Part shown: positions 226-29,250 of the stretch, piece by piece
Layout of the letters: each line of letters opens with the position of its first letter
Numbering within the stretch: position 1 is the first letter of the stretch
Assembly (NCBI GenBank): GCA_016198125.1
Contig: JACQJG010000004.1
Coordinates: forward strand, 1-32,595
Length of the DNA: 32,595 nt
Direction: 5' to 3'
Source: Candidatus Iainarchaeum sp.
GTDB taxonomy: Archaea > Iainarchaeota > Iainarchaeia > Iainarchaeales > VGJJ01
Notes under the pieces: generated by a model
Databases searched by the model: none
Told to the model about the DNA's origin: nothing
Seen by the model: only the letters and a program-made list of their open reading frames with translations
Translations under genes and position numbers: made by a program

Positions 226-266
226 ATTTTTCATTTAACATTCTATTTCTTATTTTTTCTTCTTTA
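226..266 (+). terminator. T-rich archaeal-type terminator
   Basis: Several T runs, the longest at 246-256, follow the micro-gene on the plus strand. Oligo-T tracts without a hairpin are the usual archaeal intrinsic terminators. The tract reaches into the 3' end of the convergent gene that stops at 250. Confidence 0.45.
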
Positions 267-648
267 CACCCCTCTTTGAAAGGGTTTTAACAGGCTTAAA
301 CACGTTTTTGGCTGGTTTACTCTTTTGAATGAACGGGGGTTCTTTGGCATACCGGGTGTTACGTTCCCGGTGGTAGGGATTTGCCGCCAGATAGAGGGTT
401 ATGGCGAGAAGTACAACTGCCCCAAACCCGATGTAATTGTAGGGGGCTTGTATGATATTGGTTTGGGGGTCCAAATAAACAGCCACCCCGATTAACAGTA
501 GAAGGATAAGCACCCATTCAAATGCCACATAGGCAAGAATGCGCGGATCCGATCTGGTGGCATGCCATTTTCCTCTTGCAGCCGCCCAAATAATGCGTGG
601 AATTTCCTTATTTGCTTCTTTCCAGTTTTTTTCCATTAAATCCCTCAT
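250..648 (-). CDS. Two-TM membrane protein with Lys-rich tail, coupled to the lipoprotein gene
   Basis: A 132-aa protein of unknown family. It has a charged N-terminus (MRDLMEKNWKEANKE), two hydrophobic segments around residues 37-55 and 73-88, and a basic tail ending in KKKK. The start at 648 is preferred because its ATG overlaps the upstream lipoprotein's stop as ATGA, an arrangement typical of translational coupling. With a short linker between the two segments, a hairpin topology with cytoplasmic ends is likely (inference from positive charge at both ends). Coupling to a large secreted lipoprotein suggests the two act together at the cell surface, but no function can be named. Confidence 0.75.
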   Translation of the reverse strand: MRDLMEKNWKEANKEIPRIIWAAARGKWHATRSDPRILAYVAFEWVLILLLLIGVAVYLDPQTNIIQAPYNYIGFGAVVLLAITLYLAANPYHRERNTRYAKEPPFIQKSKPAKNVFKPVKTLSKRGVKKKK

Positions 649-2483
649 GCAGTGTTTTTGCAATTTGTTTCTATTTCCGAACTGTAAATGGAATTGCATG
701 CTTCCTCATCTTTGGCCTTGGTTGCATACACATATATGCACGTGTCATTGGCATAATGGGCTTTGTTTTGATCGGAAACTTTTTCCAGTGGGACTGAATC
801 GCACAATGAAACGTCCAGGGCATTTGCTGCAATCGTTCCAACGCACGTTCCAAGGCGTTCATCATCTACAATGTTAAAGCACACCCCAGAATCCTCTTTG
901 CTTATGGCCACTTCGGAATAACATTCGTCTTTCATGATGTACGTGGCCGGGGGTTTTATATTCGCGCACAGGGATGCGTCCTCAAGGGCGAGTGCGATGT
1001 TTTTATAGCACGAAAATTTTCCCAACCCTGAGATGAGCGGGCAAATGGAAGAATCTTTATTGGCCTCTGCAACCGTTGTATAACAGCCGTCTTTTAACTC
1101 CAGGGTTCCTGCAAGGCCGCAGTATTCTTTGTTCTTTACTGCTTTTCCGACTTCTGCATAGCATTCGTTTTTAATGGAAAGAATGGTGCATTTGGCGCAC
1201 AGGTCTCCCTGTCCTTTGTTCAATGCAAGCGTCTTGAAGCAATTGGATAACTGGTTTTCGTCCGATATGGCTTGGCATGCACTTTCAGACAATTCTGCTT
1301 TTGGTATGAGCGCTTGCCAGCACGTTATTTTTTCAACAGGGGAAAGAATTTTTGCACAGGGGGCAATGGAAGGGATGGCTTGCGCCACGGCATAGTAGCA
1401 CACGTCCTTTTGGAATACCCCGCTGACTTGACTGGATATGAGTGCGCACAGGGAGGCATTCTTTGAGGCAAGCGCGACGCTTTGAATGCACGCTTCTTTG
1501 TTTGCAGTTGAAAGGCCCAAGCATGCGTCCACGTTTGCAGTTTTTGCCGAGACCGTCTGGAGGCAGGATTCCTGCAGGTTTTGGTCTTGAACGAGATTGC
1601 ACGTTTCAATATTGGAAGTGGCAATCCCCACTGCGTTGAAGCAACCGTCCGATTTTGTTTTTGAAACAATACTCTTGCACACGTTTGCATCGTTGTTTGC
1701 AATTGCCAAGTCGTAATAACATTTATTTTTCGCGGTCGTGTCCCCTAATTCTGAACAGCTTGTGGGAAGGGTGGTTGGCTGGCTGGCTTCATTACATACA
1801 TCTTGCAGGTTTTGGTCGGTGACTTTAATACATATCTGGGGGTTTTTGAGCAGGACTGCCACCTCCTTGTAGCACTTGTCTTTAACGCTCAACGTTGGAA
1901 TGAGTGCACAGGGCTCTTCTTTTTTGCTTGTGGTTGCAACCTGGAACATGCAATCGGATTGAAGGGATTCTGTTGAAAGGCTTGAGCAAAACGCCGGATT
2001 GGCTGCGCTTTTGGCCACTTGAAGGACGCATGCTGGTTTTTCAGTTTCTGAAATGATTTGGGTACATGCCGCGGGGTTTTGGGAGAGGATGGCCACTGCT
2101 TTAAGGCAGGCATCTTTGGAAGCTTCAAGGGAAATGAGCCCGCATTCTTCTGCACTCAAATTGGCTTTGGCCACGCTGAGAACGCATCCATCCCTGGGGG
2201 CTTGTTCGGAGATAAGATTGCATACTTGCGCGAGTTTTTTTTGCACGGCATAGCCTGCATAGCACGTATCCATGTCTTTGGAATTAAGGTTGTTTTTGCA
2301 CAGTTCCGGATTGGATGTTGAAATGGCTTGGTCCTTCCAGCACGCGGCCTGCTCAGCAGGGCTTGCAACCTGCGAACAGTCTTGAACTTTTACTTGTTCA
2401 ACGGGCTGTTCAAAAATGTCCAGGCATCCGGAAAGAAATACGATTCCTGCCAGGAGGAGGTAGGATGCATGCGTGCCATTCAT
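645..2483 (-). CDS. Lipoprotein with about 22 cysteine-paired repeats of 26 residues
   Basis: The 612-aa protein starts MNGTHASYLLL and has a signal peptide ending in the lipobox LSGC, so it is probably a lipid-anchored surface protein. After a short linker, almost the whole chain is a tandem repeat: Cys, 11-13 residues, Cys, 12-13 residues, with about 22 units and about 45 cysteines. Typical units read C-x-x-I...KD-x-CY-x-x-VA...D-x-x-x-C. The regular spacing suggests an alpha-helical solenoid with a disulfide in each unit (inference). The ATG at 2483 is chosen over an upstream TTG because a TATA box lies 27 nt before it, fitting a leaderless mRNA. The downstream two-TM gene overlaps its stop. 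I do not recognise a named family. The repeats have diverged at DNA level, so they are not recent duplications. Confidence 0.85.
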   Translation of the reverse strand: MNGTHASYLLLAGIVFLSGCLDIFEQPVEQVKVQDCSQVASPAEQAACWKDQAISTSNPELCKNNLNSKDMDTCYAGYAVQKKLAQVCNLISEQAPRDGCVLSVAKANLSAEECGLISLEASKDACLKAVAILSQNPAACTQIISETEKPACVLQVAKSAANPAFCSSLSTESLQSDCMFQVATTSKKEEPCALIPTLSVKDKCYKEVAVLLKNPQICIKVTDQNLQDVCNEASQPTTLPTSCSELGDTTAKNKCYYDLAIANNDANVCKSIVSKTKSDGCFNAVGIATSNIETCNLVQDQNLQESCLQTVSAKTANVDACLGLSTANKEACIQSVALASKNASLCALISSQVSGVFQKDVCYYAVAQAIPSIAPCAKILSPVEKITCWQALIPKAELSESACQAISDENQLSNCFKTLALNKGQGDLCAKCTILSIKNECYAEVGKAVKNKEYCGLAGTLELKDGCYTTVAEANKDSSICPLISGLGKFSCYKNIALALEDASLCANIKPPATYIMKDECYSEVAISKEDSGVCFNIVDDERLGTCVGTIAANALDVSLCDSVPLEKVSDQNKAHYANDTCIYVYATKAKDEEACNSIYSSEIETNCKNTA

Positions 2484-2536: not shown

Positions 2537-2594
2537 TTCCCTCATTAGCTCCTATTTCCCTCATTAGCTCCTATTTCCCTCATTAGTCTTCTAT
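2537..2594 (-). repeat. Three tandem copies of a 19-bp repeat at the end of a regulator gene
   Basis: Two exact copies and a third degenerate copy of a 19-bp unit lie end to end. Read on the minus strand each full unit is TAATGAGGGAAATAGGAGC, containing a stop/start overlap (TAATGA) and a Shine-Dalgarno-like AGGAG. The first TAA of the series is the stop codon of the winged-helix gene at 2583-3038. Replication slippage is the simplest origin. Confidence 0.8.
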
Positions 2595-3038
2595 CTCCAT
2601 TCCAAAGCGTTTGTCGATTTCGCGCGCGGTTTGTTCCATTCTGTCAAAAACGCGTTGGACTTCTTCTTCCACTTCCCGAAGGGTGCGCACCATGCTTTTG
2701 CTTCTGGCAAAGTAGGCCCGGCCCTGCTTTATTACAAGGCCCGCCTGAAGGAGGTTGTTCAAATGGTTGATTACCGAGCCGCGGGACATTTTCACCTGAT
2801 GGGCGAGTTGGCTGGAAGTGATTCCAGTCCCCTTTTCAGTTGCAAGCACGATTTCCTTAAACACTCCTGCCGCGGTCTTGTCTTTGTCAATGGGTTCAAA
2901 AAACCCTAAAGACTCGCAAATCCAGTTAAGCTCTTTTTGAAGGTCTTTATCAAAGGGCTTTTCGACCCTGCGCACCACGATCTGGAACTGGAACCTGCGC
3001 AGGGAAGGCATTGTGCGTTCAACTGGAGCGCGGGGCAT
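2583..3038 (-). CDS. Winged-helix transcriptional regulator divergent from grpE
   Basis: A 151-aa protein. A helix-turn-helix/winged-helix region at about residues 73-113 (ITSSQLAHQVKMSRGSVINH, then a wing ending in GRAYFARS) is followed by a charged, probably coiled-coil C-terminal helix that could mediate dimerisation. The N-terminal 65 residues have no motif I recognise. The ATG at 3038 is chosen because the shared TATA-like element at 3064-3071 lies about 29 nt upstream; an in-frame TTG at 3059 and an ATG at 3011 are alternatives. It is transcribed away from grpE, so control of the chaperone genes is a reasonable inference, analogous in idea to the archaeal heat-shock repressor Phr, though not recognisably the same protein. 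Confidence 0.8.
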   Translation of the reverse strand: MPRAPVERTMPSLRRFQFQIVVRRVEKPFDKDLQKELNWICESLGFFEPIDKDKTAAGVFKEIVLATEKGTGITSSQLAHQVKMSRGSVINHLNNLLQAGLVIKQGRAYFARSKSMVRTLREVEEEVQRVFDRMEQTAREIDKRFGMEIED

Positions 3039-3063
3039 ATACACGATTTGGGGGGCCAAAAGG

Positions 3064-3846: not shown

Positions 3847-3872
3847 GTAAAGACACGGGTGAAAACACATGA
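3843..3872 (+). pseudogene. Nine-codon ATGA-coupled remnant, possibly the ancestral dnaK start
   Basis: An ATG overlapping the stop of the 53-aa gene (ATGA at 3843-3846) opens a frame of only nine codons, MSKDTGENT, before a TGA. The coupled start is well placed for a downstream gene, yet the frame dies where the homing endonuclease region begins. Joining this segment to the codons at 4860 would give MSKDTGENTMGKILG, a plausible DnaK N-terminus. I infer that the endonuclease insertion cut the original dnaK 5' end. Confidence 0.3.
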
Positions 3873-3927
3873 CAAACTTGGCTTGTTATTTTGGAAACAG
3901 TTCAACGGAAACGGGGTCTCCAAAGGA

Positions 3928-3936
3928 TTTAATATA
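3928..3936 (+). promoter_or_regulatory. TATA box of the homing endonuclease gene
   Basis: TTTAATATA centred at 3932 lies 24 nt before the ATG at 3956, so the endonuclease has its own promoter and probably a leaderless transcript inside the chaperone cluster. Confidence 0.55.
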
Positions 3937-3955
3937 CCTAAAAGAGAATACTCTT

Positions 3956-4867
3956 ATGGACACGGCCCTATTAAACCAGATAAAGGAAATACGAAAAAAA
4001 GGGGATTTTCACACCATCCGGAAAAAGATTGGGGATGAGAATCTTAGGGGGTTTATTTGTGACTTGTATCCAGCTCATACAATAACTGAACTTAAAAAAA
4101 TACTTGAAGTGCCGGACTCAACCCTTGGGTACTGGTTCAAACACCTCAACATTCCGCCTATTCGTCATCATGCTTCAATCGTTTCATTGCCTGCAAGCTT
4201 TACCGCACAAGCAGCAATAAGCAATGGGAAAATAGCGACCATTTATTCTGCCACAGAAATTACTCCTGAATTGGCATATTTGATTGGATTTGCCCTTGGC
4301 GATGAAAGTGTACAGAAATACATGGTAGAAGTATTCAACCAAGACAGAAAACTACGTGAACACCTACACCCAATATTAAAGAAGTACGGCACCGTAACGG
4401 AAGATGAAAGGGAAAACGGGCTGTGGCGGCTAAGATTATCAAGTGTAAAAATAGCGAATCTAATAAAGACTGGAAAAAAAATCCGAGAAGATACAATTGA
4501 CTACATACTAAGTAACGATGACCTTGCACGGCAATTCATAGCGGCTTTTTGGGATGCAGAAGGAACCGCGAGAAGGCAAGATAAGAACTACCATCTTTAT
4601 TTGTACAATACTAACGAAGCACTATTGGAAAGAATTGGGGCTTTTTTAGCAAGCAAGGGAATAAAGTTTTCAAAGTACAGCCGATTTGATAAGGGGCGTG
4701 TTTGTTTTTTCAATGGGCATGAGATAAGAACAACTAAGCCGTTGTACAGGTTAAGTATTCCTAAAGAAAGCCGACATACGTGGGTGAGTGAGATTGGCAT
4801 TTATTTGAAGCATTCAAAAAAGAAGGCAACTGTTGAAGAGATTGAGGAGGGCGATTTAGATGGGTAA
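3956..4867 (+). CDS. Free-standing LAGLIDADG homing endonuclease inserted upstream of dnaK
   Basis: A 303-aa protein with an N-terminal helix-turn-helix region at about residues 42-65 ([19 protein letters not shown]) and two LAGLIDADG motifs, [13 protein letters not shown] at about 106-118 and [15 protein letters not shown] at about 190-204. Both keep an acidic residue at the catalytic position (D in LGDES, D in WDAEGT), so the enzyme may be active. Such proteins cut one DNA site and copy their own gene into it by repair. The start at 3956 fits the TATA box; an in-frame ATG at 3869 is less likely. Base use is visibly more AT-rich than grpE or dnaK, as expected for a transferred element. Its last 8 nt overlap dnaK, and its terminal Glu-Glu-Gly codons form dnaK's ribosome-binding site. 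It is not an intein: no splicing blocks flank it. Confidence 0.88.
4844..4850 (+). promoter_or_regulatory. dnaK ribosome-binding site formed by the end of the endonuclease gene
   Basis: GAGGAGG lies 9 nt before the dnaK ATG at 4860. It lies within the last codons of the upstream endonuclease frame, so translation of the two genes is physically linked. Confidence 0.6.
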
Positions 4868-24360: not shown

Positions 24361-27300
24361 ATGGAAATGGCCGGGCTTGCGTTGAACGTGCTGGGAGATG
24401 AGCGTACAAAAAAATACTATGGTGCCCTGGCCGCGCGCGTGCATGAACAATTTGACTGGGCCAAAAAGGCCCGCGAAACAGGCTTGGATGTAAGCCTTGA
24501 AGTGGAAAGCCTTCCAGTGGCAGACCTTGCAGACCGCACGGAAAAAATTGCAGGTCCTCTTGGAATCGCGAAACGCTTTCGGGAAGCACTTGTGGAATGC
24601 AATGGCAAGCGCATGGACACCATTTTTAAAGTGTTCAAGGAAATTGTTGCAGAAAACACGTTCAACATTCCGGACACGCAAAAGCGCGTAGAACAAGGCA
24701 TTCGAACGGCACTGGTTATTCTTACTGAAGGCGTGGTAGTGGCTCCATTGGACGGCCTGCCTCAGGCACTCATTTCACGCAACCCGGATGGAAGCAGGTA
24801 CGTGGATGTATACTTTGCAGGGCCCATTCGCGCCGCAGGAGGCAGTGCCACGGTGCTCCCGCTTATACTGGGAGATTACGCGCAAAAGCTTTTGGGACTT
24901 GAAAGGTACAAGCCCACGGAAGATGAAGTGGAACGGTATGTGGAGGAAGTCAGCATTTACCAAACAGACGTGGTTTCACGCCAAATAAAGTTGACTGAAG
25001 AGGAAATCCGTATTATTGTACGCGGGTGTCCCGTGTGTATTAACGGGGTTCCAACTGAAGATGTGGAAGTACAGAACCACCGGGACTTGGAACGCATTCC
25101 AACAAATAAAATTCGTGGAGGCATGGGATTGGTGATAACTGAAGGCGTTGGGCTAAAGGCATTGAAGATATTGGATTGGAGCAAGAAGCTGGGATTGGAT
25201 TGGAGTTTTTTGGAGCAAATCATAAAAGTGGAAAAAAAAGCCGACAAGGTTACAGAGTTAAAGCCCGTGAACAAATACCTGGAAGGCATTGCCGCAGGAA
25301 GGCCCTTGCTTGCATACCCCCAGGAATATGGGGGTTTTCGTTTGCGGTATGGGCGTTGCCGCAACACAGGAATTGCCGCAAAAGGAATCAATCCGGCCAC
25401 CATGGCTCTTTTGGACGAATTTCTTGCAGTGGGAACGCACATTAAAGTGGAACGCCCTGGAAAAGCCGCGCAAGTGTTTCCATGCACGACCATTGAAGGC
25501 CCCACCGTGCTCTTGAACGATGGAAGCGTACGCCAAGTGAACATATATGAGGAAGCCCAGGCGCTGCGCCCCCAAGTTAAGCGCATTCTTTTCCTTGGAG
25601 ACCTGCTTGTAACAGTAGGAGACTACCGCAAAAGCTCGCACCCCTTAACGCCCAGTCCATTTGTACCTGAATGGTGGAAGCTGTTGGTTGAAAAAACACT
25701 GAAAGAAGGGAAAAGGACTGCGCTCTCAGAGGAACGCATTCGCATGCTCCTGAAAGACCCTGAACATGTTCCATTCAGCGAGGCCTGCACGCTAAGCAAA
25801 GAACTTGAAATTCCCTTGCACCCTGCTTACACCTATTATTATACTGCACTTTCGCGCGAGCAGTTCCTGGAAGTCATTCAAGCCCTAAACCAGGGAATTT
25901 CACGCCCTGCACAAAATGGAATGGAATGGGTTGTGCCATTTCATGAGCGTATAAAAGAACATTTGGAAAACATGGGAGTGCCCCACAAAATACAGGAAGA
26001 ATCCATTGTCTTCTCTTCCCCTCACGCAGATGCCCTTGCATTCACGTTTGTGCGCGAGGATGCATTAAAGCGTGTAGAGGGAAAGGAAAAAGTATTGGAA
26101 TGCGCTACCGCGCTTGCGGGCGTGCCCATTCTGGACCGGGCAGGAACGTTTGTTGGAGCGCGCATGGGCCGGCCTGAGGCTGCACGCGAGCGCACCATGA
26201 AGGGCAACCCGCACATATTGTTTCCAATCGGATTACATGGGGGTTCAACAAGAAGCATGAACAAGGCCATGAACACCCAGTCAGGCCAAACGTTTGGAAA
26301 CATAAAAGTGGAGGCAAGTATTTTCAAGTGCAGGGAATGCAAGCAGATCCTGCCCTATTATTATTGCCGCGCGTGCGGTCAGCGCACGCAGAAAATGTAT
26401 GCGTGCAAAACGTGTGCGGGCATCCTTGAAACCCCTGAATGCAGAAAGTGCGGCACTACTGCGCTTCCTTCTGAAAACCGGGCCATCAACCTGCATGAAC
26501 TGATGGAGAAAACACTCAAACGCATGAATGAACGCATGCCTGACCCTGTGAAAGGCGTAAAGGGCATGATATCCGATGACAAGGTCCCGGAACCCTTGGA
26601 AAAGGGCATTTTGCGCGCCAAACACCAGGTTCATGTATTCCGCGATGGAACCTGCCGATTTGAATTGTTGAATGCGCCCCTCACCCACTTCACGCCCAAC
26701 GAATTGGGCTTGAGTGTTGAACGCGCGCACGCCCTGGGATACGTGAAAGACATTCAAGGAAAGCCCCTCACGCAGGGAGACCAGTTAGTGGAATTATTCC
26801 CGCAGGACATTGTCATAAACGAAAAAGGGGGAGATTGGCTGTTAAGCATGAGCAGGTTTGTGGATGACCTGCTGGAAAAGTTTTACGCTCTTCCACGGTA
26901 TTACAATGCAAAAATAAAAGACGATTTAATCGGCGAACTTGTAGTAGGATTGGCCCCGCACACCAGTGCAGGCATTGTTGCACGCGTGATTGGGTATTCA
27001 AATGCGCGCGTGGGCTGGGGACACCCGTTCTTTATAACATGCAAGCGCAGGAACTGTTTAACGGGAGATACACCCGTTGTAATCCAAAACGGGCACAAAA
27101 CAAAAGCCGTGGCCATCCGCGATTTGGACGATGGAACGTTAAACGAGGAAATCCCCCTGGAAAACGTTTTCACGCACACCATTGATGAACAGGGAAGGCT
27201 GTCCACGCGCAAGGTAAAAGGCCTGCTGAAACAAAAGTCCCCGCAGGAACTGTTAAAATTCAAAACCAAATTCGGCCGCGAAATAACCACTACCCCTAAC

Positions 27301-29250
27301 CACAAACTGCTTACGTTTGACGGAAAAAAAGTGGTTGAAAAAGAGTCATCCAAATTTTCTCCGGGAGAAAACCTGCTTTCACTCCACTCCATTACATCCA
27401 ACAGCCAAGTACAGGAATTCAATGTGCTGGAATTTTACCTGAAAAAAGAATCGCGGGTGAAAAAATTACTGCGCGTTCACGGGGCAAAAAAAGAATTAAG
27501 GCACTGGATTAAAGGCCACGGGGGCTTTGCAGAAACTGCGCGGAGAATGGGGGTACAAAACTGGAAGAAAATGCACACCGCGGTTGACTTTGACTCCGTT
27601 CCATTGGACTTGTTTGAATTGCTGGCCAGGGACATGAAAAAGGGAAGCAGGGACTTCCCGCATGTGCGCATAGGGTACAACAAGCAGAAGAGCACGATTC
27701 CAAGCATCATCCCGTTTAACAGAGAACTCGGTGAAATCGTCGGATATTATCTGGCTGACGGGTATTCAAGGACCACGCGCGGAAAACGTGAAAAATTCGT
27801 GTACCAGGTCAACTGGGTTTCGGACGAGCGCGCGGTTACAAAAAAACTGCGCGATTCTGCCCTGAAACTGTTTGGAAGAACGGTCACCATTGAAAAGAGA
27901 AAACTGGACTATGTAACGCTGAGCGGGCGCGTGTACTATGAGTTTTTCACTGAAATGCTTGGAACAGGCGCAAGGGCAACCGACAAGCGCGTACCGTACT
28001 TACTGTTAAATTCCCAAAAAGAATGCCTGGAAGGGCTTTTGGCCGGGTACATTGTGGGCGACGGGCACATCAATGAAAATTCAATAAAAATGACTTCGGT
28101 CAACAAGTCTCTGATAAACGACTTTGGACTGGCATGCAACCTGCTTGGATTCTTTCCCCATTTCATCAACGAAAAAGAAAGGGAAATCAAAACTGGTTAC
28201 GTGAAAGAATTTTACGCTAAAAAGGGAAAAACCATTTCCATTCACTCCTATGGAATAAGGCTGTACTCGGAGGACCTGAAAGGAATCGGAAGGCATTTAT
28301 TTGGAAAAAAGGCCCAAGTATTTGATAAAATAATGGAAACGCATCCGTTCAGGAAGAAAAGAATAAAATGCATTGGAAGCTTTGCATTGGACCCCATTGT
28401 TGAAATAAGAAAAGTGGAAAGCAAAGAGGAATGGGTATACGATTTGATGGTGGAAGGGGAAAAGAATTACATTGCCGGATTCGGAAACCTGGCCGTGTAC
28501 GACTGCGACGGGGACCAGGACGCCATCATGCTCCTCTTGGACCTCTTGCTGAATTTCAGTCATTCCTATCTTGCAAGCTCGCGCGGAGGAAGAATGGACG
28601 CGGCGCTTGTTTTCACGGTTGCCCTGGACCCGCGCGAAATCGATGATGAAGTGCATGAAATGGAAACATGCAACCAATATCCCTTGGAACTTTACGAGAA
28701 AAGCCTTGAGTTAAGCCCTCCATTCTTGGATGTTGTCCCCACCGTGGGCCAACGGCTTGGAACAGAAGCACAATATGCAGGAGTCGCTTTCACCCATGAA
28801 ACTGAACGGTTTGACATAGGCCCCAAACAGTCCATGTACATTCAACTGGGTTCCATGGAAGAAAAACTGCGCACGCAGGCCAAATTGCAGGGCAAAATCA
28901 GGGCCGTGCATGAAAAAGACGCTTTGGAAAGAGTGCTCCTGTCCCATTTGCTTCCAGACATTATTGGGAATACGCGCGCGTATTCAAGGCAAACGTTCCG
29001 TTGTACAAAGTGCAACGCCAAGTACCGCAGAATCCCCTTAATTGGAAAATGCGAAAAATGCAGCGGGAATGTTATTTTGACCATCGCAGAAGGGTCTATT
29101 AAGAAATACCTTCAAATAGCCAAAAACGTTGTGAATGAATATGGATTGTCCAATTACCTCAAACAACGCCTGGAATTAGCGGGAAGGGAAATTGACACGC
29201 TCTTTGTCAACGAAGCCGAAAAGCAGAAAAGCCTGTTCGAGTTTGCGTAG
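24361..29250 (+). CDS. polC: DNA polymerase D large subunit DP2, intein-containing precursor
   Basis: A 1629-residue precursor; removing the 483-residue intein leaves 1146 residues, normal for DP2. It opens with a helical N-terminal domain, then the conserved block YFAGPIRAAGGSATVLPLIL. Cys clusters at about 657-700 (CRECKQI, CRACGQR, CKTCAGI, CRKCGT) and 1548-1575 (CTKCNAK, CEKCSGN; precursor numbering) are zinc-binding. The catalytic Asp motif of the double-psi barrel core, CDGDQD, is at 1382-1387 directly after the intein. DP2 is the catalytic subunit of the replicative polymerase in Euryarchaeota and DPANN. Until the intein is removed, the active-site loop is interrupted, so the precursor should not polymerise DNA. 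Confidence 0.97.
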   Translation: MEMAGLALNVLGDERTKKYYGALAARVHEQFDWAKKARETGLDVSLEVESLPVADLADRTEKIAGPLGIAKRFREALVECNGKRMDTIFKVFKEIVAENTFNIPDTQKRVEQGIRTALVILTEGVVVAPLDGLPQALISRNPDGSRYVDVYFAGPIRAAGGSATVLPLILGDYAQKLLGLERYKPTEDEVERYVEEVSIYQTDVVSRQIKLTEEEIRIIVRGCPVCINGVPTEDVEVQNHRDLERIPTNKIRGGMGLVITEGVGLKALKILDWSKKLGLDWSFLEQIIKVEKKADKVTELKPVNKYLEGIAAGRPLLAYPQEYGGFRLRYGRCRNTGIAAKGINPATMALLDEFLAVGTHIKVERPGKAAQVFPCTTIEGPTVLLNDGSVRQVNIYEEAQALRPQVKRILFLGDLLVTVGDYRKSSHPLTPSPFVPEWWKLLVEKTLKEGKRTALSEERIRMLLKDPEHVPFSEACTLSKELEIPLHPAYTYYYTALSREQFLEVIQALNQGISRPAQNGMEWVVPFHERIKEHLENMGVPHKIQEESIVFSSPHADALAFTFVREDALKRVEGKEKVLECATALAGVPILDRAGTFVGARMGRPEAARERTMKGNPHILFPIGLHGGSTRSMNKAMNTQSGQTFGNIKVEASIFKCRECKQILPYYYCRACGQRTQKMYACKTCAGILETPECRKCGTTALPSENRAINLHELMEKTLKRMNERMPDPVKGVKGMISDDKVPEPLEKGILRAKHQVHVFRDGTCRFELLNAPLTHFTPNELGLSVERAHALGYVKDIQGKPLTQGDQLVELFPQDIVINEKGGDWLLSMSRFVDDLLEKFYALPRYYNAKIKDDLIGELVVGLAPHTSAGIVARVIGYSNARVGWGHPFFITCKRRNCLTGDTPVVIQNGHKTKAVAIRDLDDGTLNEEIPLENVFTHTIDEQGRLSTRKVKGLLKQKSPQELLKFKTKFGREITTTPNHKLLTFDGKKVVEKESSKFSPGENLLSLHSITSNSQVQEFNVLEFYLKKESRVKKLLRVHGAKKELRHWIKGHGGFAETARRMGVQNWKKMHTAVDFDSVPLDLFELLARDMKKGSRDFPHVRIGYNKQKSTIPSIIPFNRELGEIVGYYLADGYSRTTRGKREKFVYQVNWVSDERAVTKKLRDSALKLFGRTVTIEKRKLDYVTLSGRVYYEFFTEMLGTGARATDKRVPYLLLNSQKECLEGLLAGYIVGDGHINENSIKMTSVNKSLINDFGLACNLLGFFPHFINEKEREIKTGYVKEFYAKKGKTISIHSYGIRLYSEDLKGIGRHLFGKKAQVFDKIMETHPFRKKRIKCIGSFALDPIVEIRKVESKEEWVYDLMVEGEKNYIAGFGNLAVYDCDGDQDAIMLLLDLLLNFSHSYLASSRGGRMDAALVFTVALDPREIDDEVHEMETCNQYPLELYEKSLELSPPFLDVVPTVGQRLGTEAQYAGVAFTHETERFDIGPKQSMYIQLGSMEEKLRTQAKLQGKIRAVHEKDALERVLLSHLLPDIIGNTRAYSRQTFRCTKCNAKYRRIPLIGKCEKCSGNVILTIAEGSIKKYLQIAKNVVNEYGLSNYLKQRLELAGREIDTLFVNEAEKQKSLFEFA
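27055..28503 (+). mobile_element. Intein with LAGLIDADG endonuclease in DP2
   Basis: The insertion begins at Cys899 (CLTGDTPVV, splicing block A) after KRRN and ends at Asp1381 before CDGDQD, 483 residues. Block B TTTPNHKLL has the conserved Thr and His. The endonuclease motifs are LGEIVGYYLADGY (intein residues about 225-237) and LEGLLAGYIVGDGH (about 325-338), both with intact acidic residues. Block F is WVYDLMVEGEKNYIAG. The C-terminus reads NLAVYD followed by Cys, so the usual His-Asn pair is Tyr-Asp. The +1 Cys is present. The site is the same catalytic loop used by known archaeal DP2 inteins. Confidence 0.93.

Follow-up and report, generated by a model that had tools for sequence, protein, structure and literature searches.

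The described systems closest to the repeat analysed here are exported helical proteins of Helicobacter and Campylobacter. The Sel1-like Hcp proteins of Helicobacter and Csep1 of Campylobacter are exported alpha/alpha solenoids with a disulfide in each helical hairpin (PMC12904459, PMC2581425). The central repeats of CagY in Helicobacter pylori form a long surface-exposed tandem array of alpha-helical modules with regular cysteines, in which disulfides matter for stability and which varies through DNA repeats (PMC2581425). The surface proteins of DPANN archaea and Patescibacteria mostly lack annotation, and the repeat described below provides one precisely defined, searchable module among them.

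The stretch of DNA analysed, hereafter the window, comprises 32,595 nucleotides of Candidatus Iainarchaeum sp. (assembly GCA_016198125.1, contig JACQJG010000004.1). The host belongs to the phylum Diapherotrites, its genome is an 846-kb assembly of 20 contigs that is 71% complete, and the GrpE/DnaK, archaeal DP2 and Cdc6 genes of the window are consistent with an archaeal host. A LAGLIDADG homing-endonuclease-like ORF (3869-4867, plus strand) lies between the grpE-like gene and dnaK, overlapping the dnaK start by 8 bases, and the DP2 large subunit gene (24361-29250, plus strand) contains an intein with a LAGLIDADG domain (Pfam matches, residues 941-1374 and 1222-1278). The repeat protein, P0001, is encoded on the minus strand from an ATG at 2483 to a stop at 645-647, as read from the sequence, while stops close the reading frame on the plus strand over 645-2483. 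The features of the locus are as follows:

645..2483, minus strand: P0001 gene, encoding a predicted lipoprotein of 612 residues with 22 cysteine-pair units (ORF and cysteine count)
2424..2435, minus strand: lipobox LSGC, residues 17-20, with a predicted lipid anchor on Cys20 (sequence, alignment with eight relatives)
660..2378, minus strand: repeat array, residues 36-608, 22 C-x(10-20)-C pairs with spacers mostly x13 (cysteine gaps, AF2)
660..803, minus strand: C-terminal cap, C561 to C608, cysteine gaps 21, 14 and 12 (position-by-position match with orthologues, 11 families)
1188..1190, minus strand: odd Cys432, apparently unpaired (gap list 14, 3, 9)
250..648, minus strand: P0002 gene, encoding a 132-residue two-TM protein (ATGA overlap with the P0001 stop)
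442..480, minus strand: TM1-TM2 loop of P0002, motif YLDPxxNxxxxP (alignment A6; D60, P61, N64 and P69 invariant)
2583..3059, minus strand: winged-helix regulator gene, upstream of P0001 (conserved in three family-f1 relatives)

The 46 cysteines of P0001 consist of the lipobox C20, 22 pairs running from C36-C48 to C596-C608 with gaps that alternate almost strictly between 12 and 14, and the odd C432, which is not seen in three family-f1 relatives. The array follows the consensus KDxCYxxVAxxxKDxxLCxxI. Cysteines stand at a distance of exactly 14 in 19 pairs and of 26 in 28 pairs, against maxima of 11 and 9, respectively, over 5000 shuffles of P0001, and a chance origin of this regularity is excluded. 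The initial annotation, which had counted 22 units of 26 residues and about 45 cysteines, was thus accurate and left only the strand unstated. Its description of P0001 as a surface lipoprotein also agrees with the predicted signals for export and lipid anchoring: a hydrophobic signal is followed by a lipobox cysteine near the N-terminus, the arrangement that defines archaeal lipoproteins, which predicts a lipid anchor on Cys20, and G19-C20 are invariant columns in an alignment with eight relatives (A1). A simple rule of pattern and hydropathy assigns a lipobox or hydrophobic N-terminus to 72 of the 80 arrays, and several of the other eight look like wrong start calls or fragments.

The AF2 model of P0001 (mean pLDDT 88, pTM only 0.56) alternates 15-residue helices with helices of 4-6 residues, and that of a relative from Patescibacteria, L050 (pLDDT 94.3, pTM 0.76), has the same 15+6 helix pattern with a strict period of 26. 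One cysteine lies at the seventh residue of each long helix and the other in each short helix. Both models support the helical repeat solenoid proposed earlier, and exported tandem helical repeats of this kind would place P0001 in the disulfide-stapled alpha-solenoid class, a class assignment and not a claim of homology. Foldseek retrieved generic solenoids only, with no close PDB match: the PDB list for P0001 goes no higher than a TM-score of 0.30, viral models reach at most 0.37, and the best PDB match, the archaeal Ton1535 (3zpj; probability 1.0, E 3e-4, TM-score 0.21-0.23, 13% identity), is likewise all-helical and archaeal but shares at most the class, not the family.

The likeness to Hcp and Csep1 lies in the exported helical solenoid with regular cysteines, the disulfides of the P0001-type repeat being presumed, and the dimensions differ. 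The Hcp type has a 36-residue unit, with hairpin cysteines 9 apart in Csep1, whereas the unit here measures 26 residues with cysteines 12 or 14 apart; Sel1/TPR units of 34-36 residues contain two long antiparallel helices, whereas the present unit pairs a long with a very short helix (15 and 4-6 residues) and probably has its bond between units. Sel1/TPR profiles are absent from the Pfam listings for P0001 (E<=1) and near-consensus members. The principal A motif of CagY, 38-39 residues long and Lys/Glu-rich, belongs to a type IV secretion sheath, and the Pfam CagY repeat families gave no match in scans of P0001 and near-consensus relatives.

More broadly, no relevant family was found for the repeat, near-consensus members included, in Pfam, NCBIfam, PADLOC, PHROGs or, by sequence, the PDB (weak family matches with zero qualifying stretches being taken as chance), in line with the initial annotation's statement that no characterised member was known. 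The PADLOC collection contained no defence-system match, a contig scan of genomes with P0001 alone as query returned no matches, and no description of the repeat was found in the literature searched. A mobile or viral origin was rejected, as no match occurred among plasmids, phages and viral contigs (the viral scan used one close query only). The repeat is therefore an undescribed exported family of the disulfide-stapled alpha-solenoid kind, with presumed disulfides, and would add a 26-residue class to a small set.

Which cysteines pair with one another is suggested by the ends of the arrays. Across 80 arrays from four phyla, a 12-type pair opens 74 and closes 76, which makes the 12-spaced pair the likely disulfide; bonds of the 14-type are disfavoured because both terminal cysteines would then be orphans in nearly every array. 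The 12-type loop tolerates length change, and 14 is by far the commonest gap. A bond between units, from the cysteine in short helix n to that in long helix n+1, is thus likely from array-end statistics, and the near-invariance and pairing of the cysteines suggest that they are disulfide-bonded in the first place. A metal- or redox-active cysteine array, acting as a metal store or redox buffer in place of structural disulfides, would be in keeping with the very high cysteine content (46 of 612 residues) and with oxidative-folding enzymes that are not significantly co-distributed with the repeat. DsbA-like proteins (PF13462) occur in 56 of 83 genomes of the phylum and VKOR in 3 of 83, and neither was found in P0001's own 71%-complete genome, a point against the disulfide-stapled reading; the co-distribution of DsbA-like proteins with the repeat gave p = 0.20 in a comparison that, like those of DsbA-like/VKOR association, genome size and two-TM co-occurrence generally, treats related genomes as independent and so yields p-values that are too small. 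Such an active array is nevertheless very improbable, given that the cysteines form closed 12-type pairs and not CxxC-type metal motifs, that export signals accompany the great majority of arrays (the 72 of 80 above), and that the helical regularity puts the cysteines on the conserved, presumably buried side of the helix.

The repeat is widespread in some lineages. A search profile of five repeat units (A3) found it in 61 of 87 Diapherotrites and 25 of 29 Altiarchaeota genomes at a cut-off of 1e-3, and, at 1e-8, in 17 of 34 genomes of the phylum to which a genome recorded as Nanohalarchaeota belongs and 18 of 380 sampled Patescibacteria; the control phylum gave 1 match in 295 genomes, or 0 in 294 once the L060 genome is left out. 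That single 'Mollicutes' match is probably a binning artefact, its contig being 99.8% identical to a Paceibacterota contig (L059). Up to 34 matching stretches occur per Altiarchaeota genome, including one genome with a 1.39-Mb contig, so that the matches there are not contamination. Binning contamination was also rejected for three members from bacteria (L050, L059 and L062): the genes around them, named by eye and not by profile search, have a bacterial look (release factor and ribosomal protein L25; EF-Ts; bacterial signal peptidase). Most of the Diapherotrites and Altiarchaeota genomes examined thus carry the module; the disulfide pattern predicted for it can be put to the test and, in some lineages, so can a recognition face. 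The phylum of the Nanohalarchaeota record has its own fixed-architecture orthologue, with near-identical cysteine gap strings in four genomes (L102-L105). Fusions to other presumably extracellular domains also occur, with a weak Lcl_C match in L059 (3473-4633), a weak carboxypeptidase-regulatory-like match in L004, and Fn3-looking or cysteine-rich stretches, seen by eye, beside the repeat in L007 and L009.

Within Diapherotrites, P0001 belongs to a set of proteins of stable design. The C-terminal cap, with a cysteine gap of 18-21 before the last unit, is present in all 24 core proteins examined from 11 families, and unit similarity is position-specific, with an in- minus off-register score of 6.55 against 0.006 +- 0.27 (maximum 0.86) in 500 shuffles. 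By our own count, about 30 of 87 genomes, from 12 families, have a full-length match to the cap profile, usually a single one, and orthologues within one family keep both repeat number and cysteine spacing. Since cap and unit-by-unit register are conserved, P0001 is most simply read as an old, vertically inherited, capped orthologue conserved in Diapherotrites, and not as a recent array. Constancy of this kind would also suit a structural element of the envelope: a stalk, linker or S-layer support, stabilised by disulfides, that acts as a passive scaffold or spacer and binds no ligand specifically. Both the repeat number and spacing kept within families and the position-conserved cap across them speak for it, as do members that end in Ig-like or cysteine-rich domains, or start with other domains, in a stalk-like manner. 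We regard this reading as possible but on the doubtful side, because a passive spacer needs no variable face that outpaces synonymous sites, as observed in three arrays of Patescibacteria (L050-L052), and because tens of matching stretches per Altiarchaeota genome fit recognition better.

The variable face is clearest in L050, whose 13 units use an identical codon at nine scaffold positions (K-3, C0, Y1, A5, A7, K8, Q9, I13 and C14) and nearly so at S12, while the helix-face positions -4, -1, +2, +3 and +6 hold 6-8 different residues. At positions -1, 2, 3 and 6, units compared in pairs differ in 59-69% of cases at each of the first two bases of the codon and in 15% at the third. The ratio pN(stripe)/pS(all), computed from uncorrected proportions with stripe positions chosen after inspection of L050 and a bootstrap that treats units as independent, is 2.4 in L050 (1.9-3.1), 1.35 in L051 (1.2-1.5) and 1.6 in L052 (1.2-2.6). 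It is clearly above 1 in these three arrays, all from Patescibacteria, and near 1 or saturated in arrays of Diapherotrites, Altiarchaeota and the Nanohalarchaeota record; the units of P0001 are too diverged for this test. In seven arrays from four phyla, variation is greatest at these same stripe positions, which, judging from the helix boundaries, would occupy one face of the long helix. TAL effector repeats, which are 34 residues long and bind DNA, are likewise built of scaffold units that are nearly identical except at a few hypervariable positions along one face. The likeness to L050 lies in this stripe; the L050-type repeat is predicted to be extracellular and cysteine-paired, and no homology was found. 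A hypervariable stripe fits recognition, for which the three Patescibacteria arrays give strong evidence that does not transfer to P0001 as such; against it stands that every solenoid varies at the exposed positions of its helices.

In some variable codons of L050 (3629-4807) the third base is constant through all 13 units (NNG at -1 and +2, NNA at +6), which points either to young repeats under very strong selection or to mutation by a process that spares the third base. A diversity-generating retroelement is not favoured as the source of the variation, which runs through the whole array and in which one variable codon keeps its third-position A in every unit; no reverse transcriptase was recognisable by eye among nearby ORFs.

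P0001 and its relatives may then be rigid, disulfide-stapled binding scaffolds of the cell surface, a reading to which we give an even chance and within which we infer the disulfide connectivity, the binding function and the partner. P0001 would be a lipid-anchored extracellular alpha-solenoid in which every 26-residue unit contributes one helix of 15 residues and one short helix. The short-helix cysteine would probably bond to the cysteine that follows it by 12 residues, which lies in the long helix of the next unit. Consecutive units stapled in this manner would form a rigid rod that needs hardly any further support to stay stable outside the cell. Specificity would reside in the outward face of these long helices (positions -5, -4, -1, +2, +3 and +6 from the cysteine), and the rod would serve as a scaffold for binding or adhesion at the surface. 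In this scheme P0001 would be the fixed-architecture version; its most likely partner would be a single conserved component of the envelope or surface, and in two families the two-TM neighbour may be its partner in the membrane. More tentatively, and we think this rather less probable than not, the repeat as a whole could be an extracellular recognition scaffold of archaea and Patescibacteria, in which a codon-identical frame bears a helix face rapidly remodelled within arrays and P0001 is a fixed-specificity orthologue; if true, it would be a prokaryotic counterpart of variable receptor repeats. The repeat would also offer a stable scaffold for designed binders.

The two-TM gene P0002 starts at an ATG at 648, within the stop of P0001 (gcATGAggg), so that the ATGA coupling noted earlier can be read directly. 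It directly follows the lipoprotein gene in six genomes of two families (four of f1, two of f19) and is not always adjacent to it. Its family, found in 41 of 83 genomes of the phylum, co-occurs with the repeat (odds ratio 4.8, Fisher p = 0.004, related genomes again counting as independent), but also occurs in genomes without the repeat and, in genomes with it, away from the repeat gene. The two-component surface system suggested by the initial annotation therefore stands as regards adjacency in f1 and f19 and co-occurrence, but not as an obligate pair.

The same coupling in f1 and f19 would suit a host-contact adhesin of a symbiotic archaeon working with the two-TM protein, as would the presence of the repeat in Patescibacteria, which are presumed episymbionts, and in the Nanohalarchaeota record's phylum. 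This role, also proposed at the outset, is unlikely. Completeness-corrected genome size in Diapherotrites has a median of 1.28 Mb with the repeat and 0.85 Mb without it (p = 5e-10, related genomes treated as independent), the smallest genomes being those that lack it, and a part in symbiosis is not supported; the two-TM gene frequently lies elsewhere or occurs where the repeat is absent; and a free-living lifestyle has been suggested for Altiarchaeota and Diapherotrites, the phyla richest in the repeat (PMC8407392).

A winged-helix gene lies upstream of the lipoprotein gene in all four f1 genomes. In the three f1 relatives an M50-like membrane protease gene stands between the two (L002:914-1429, L003:931-1446 and L006:889-1437), and it is missing at this place in the window. 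The loop motif of the two-TM family can also be read from the alignment as YLDPxxNxxPxP, and one protein of the family is a tandem duplicate in which the loop motif occurs twice (L037:1285-1728, minus strand).
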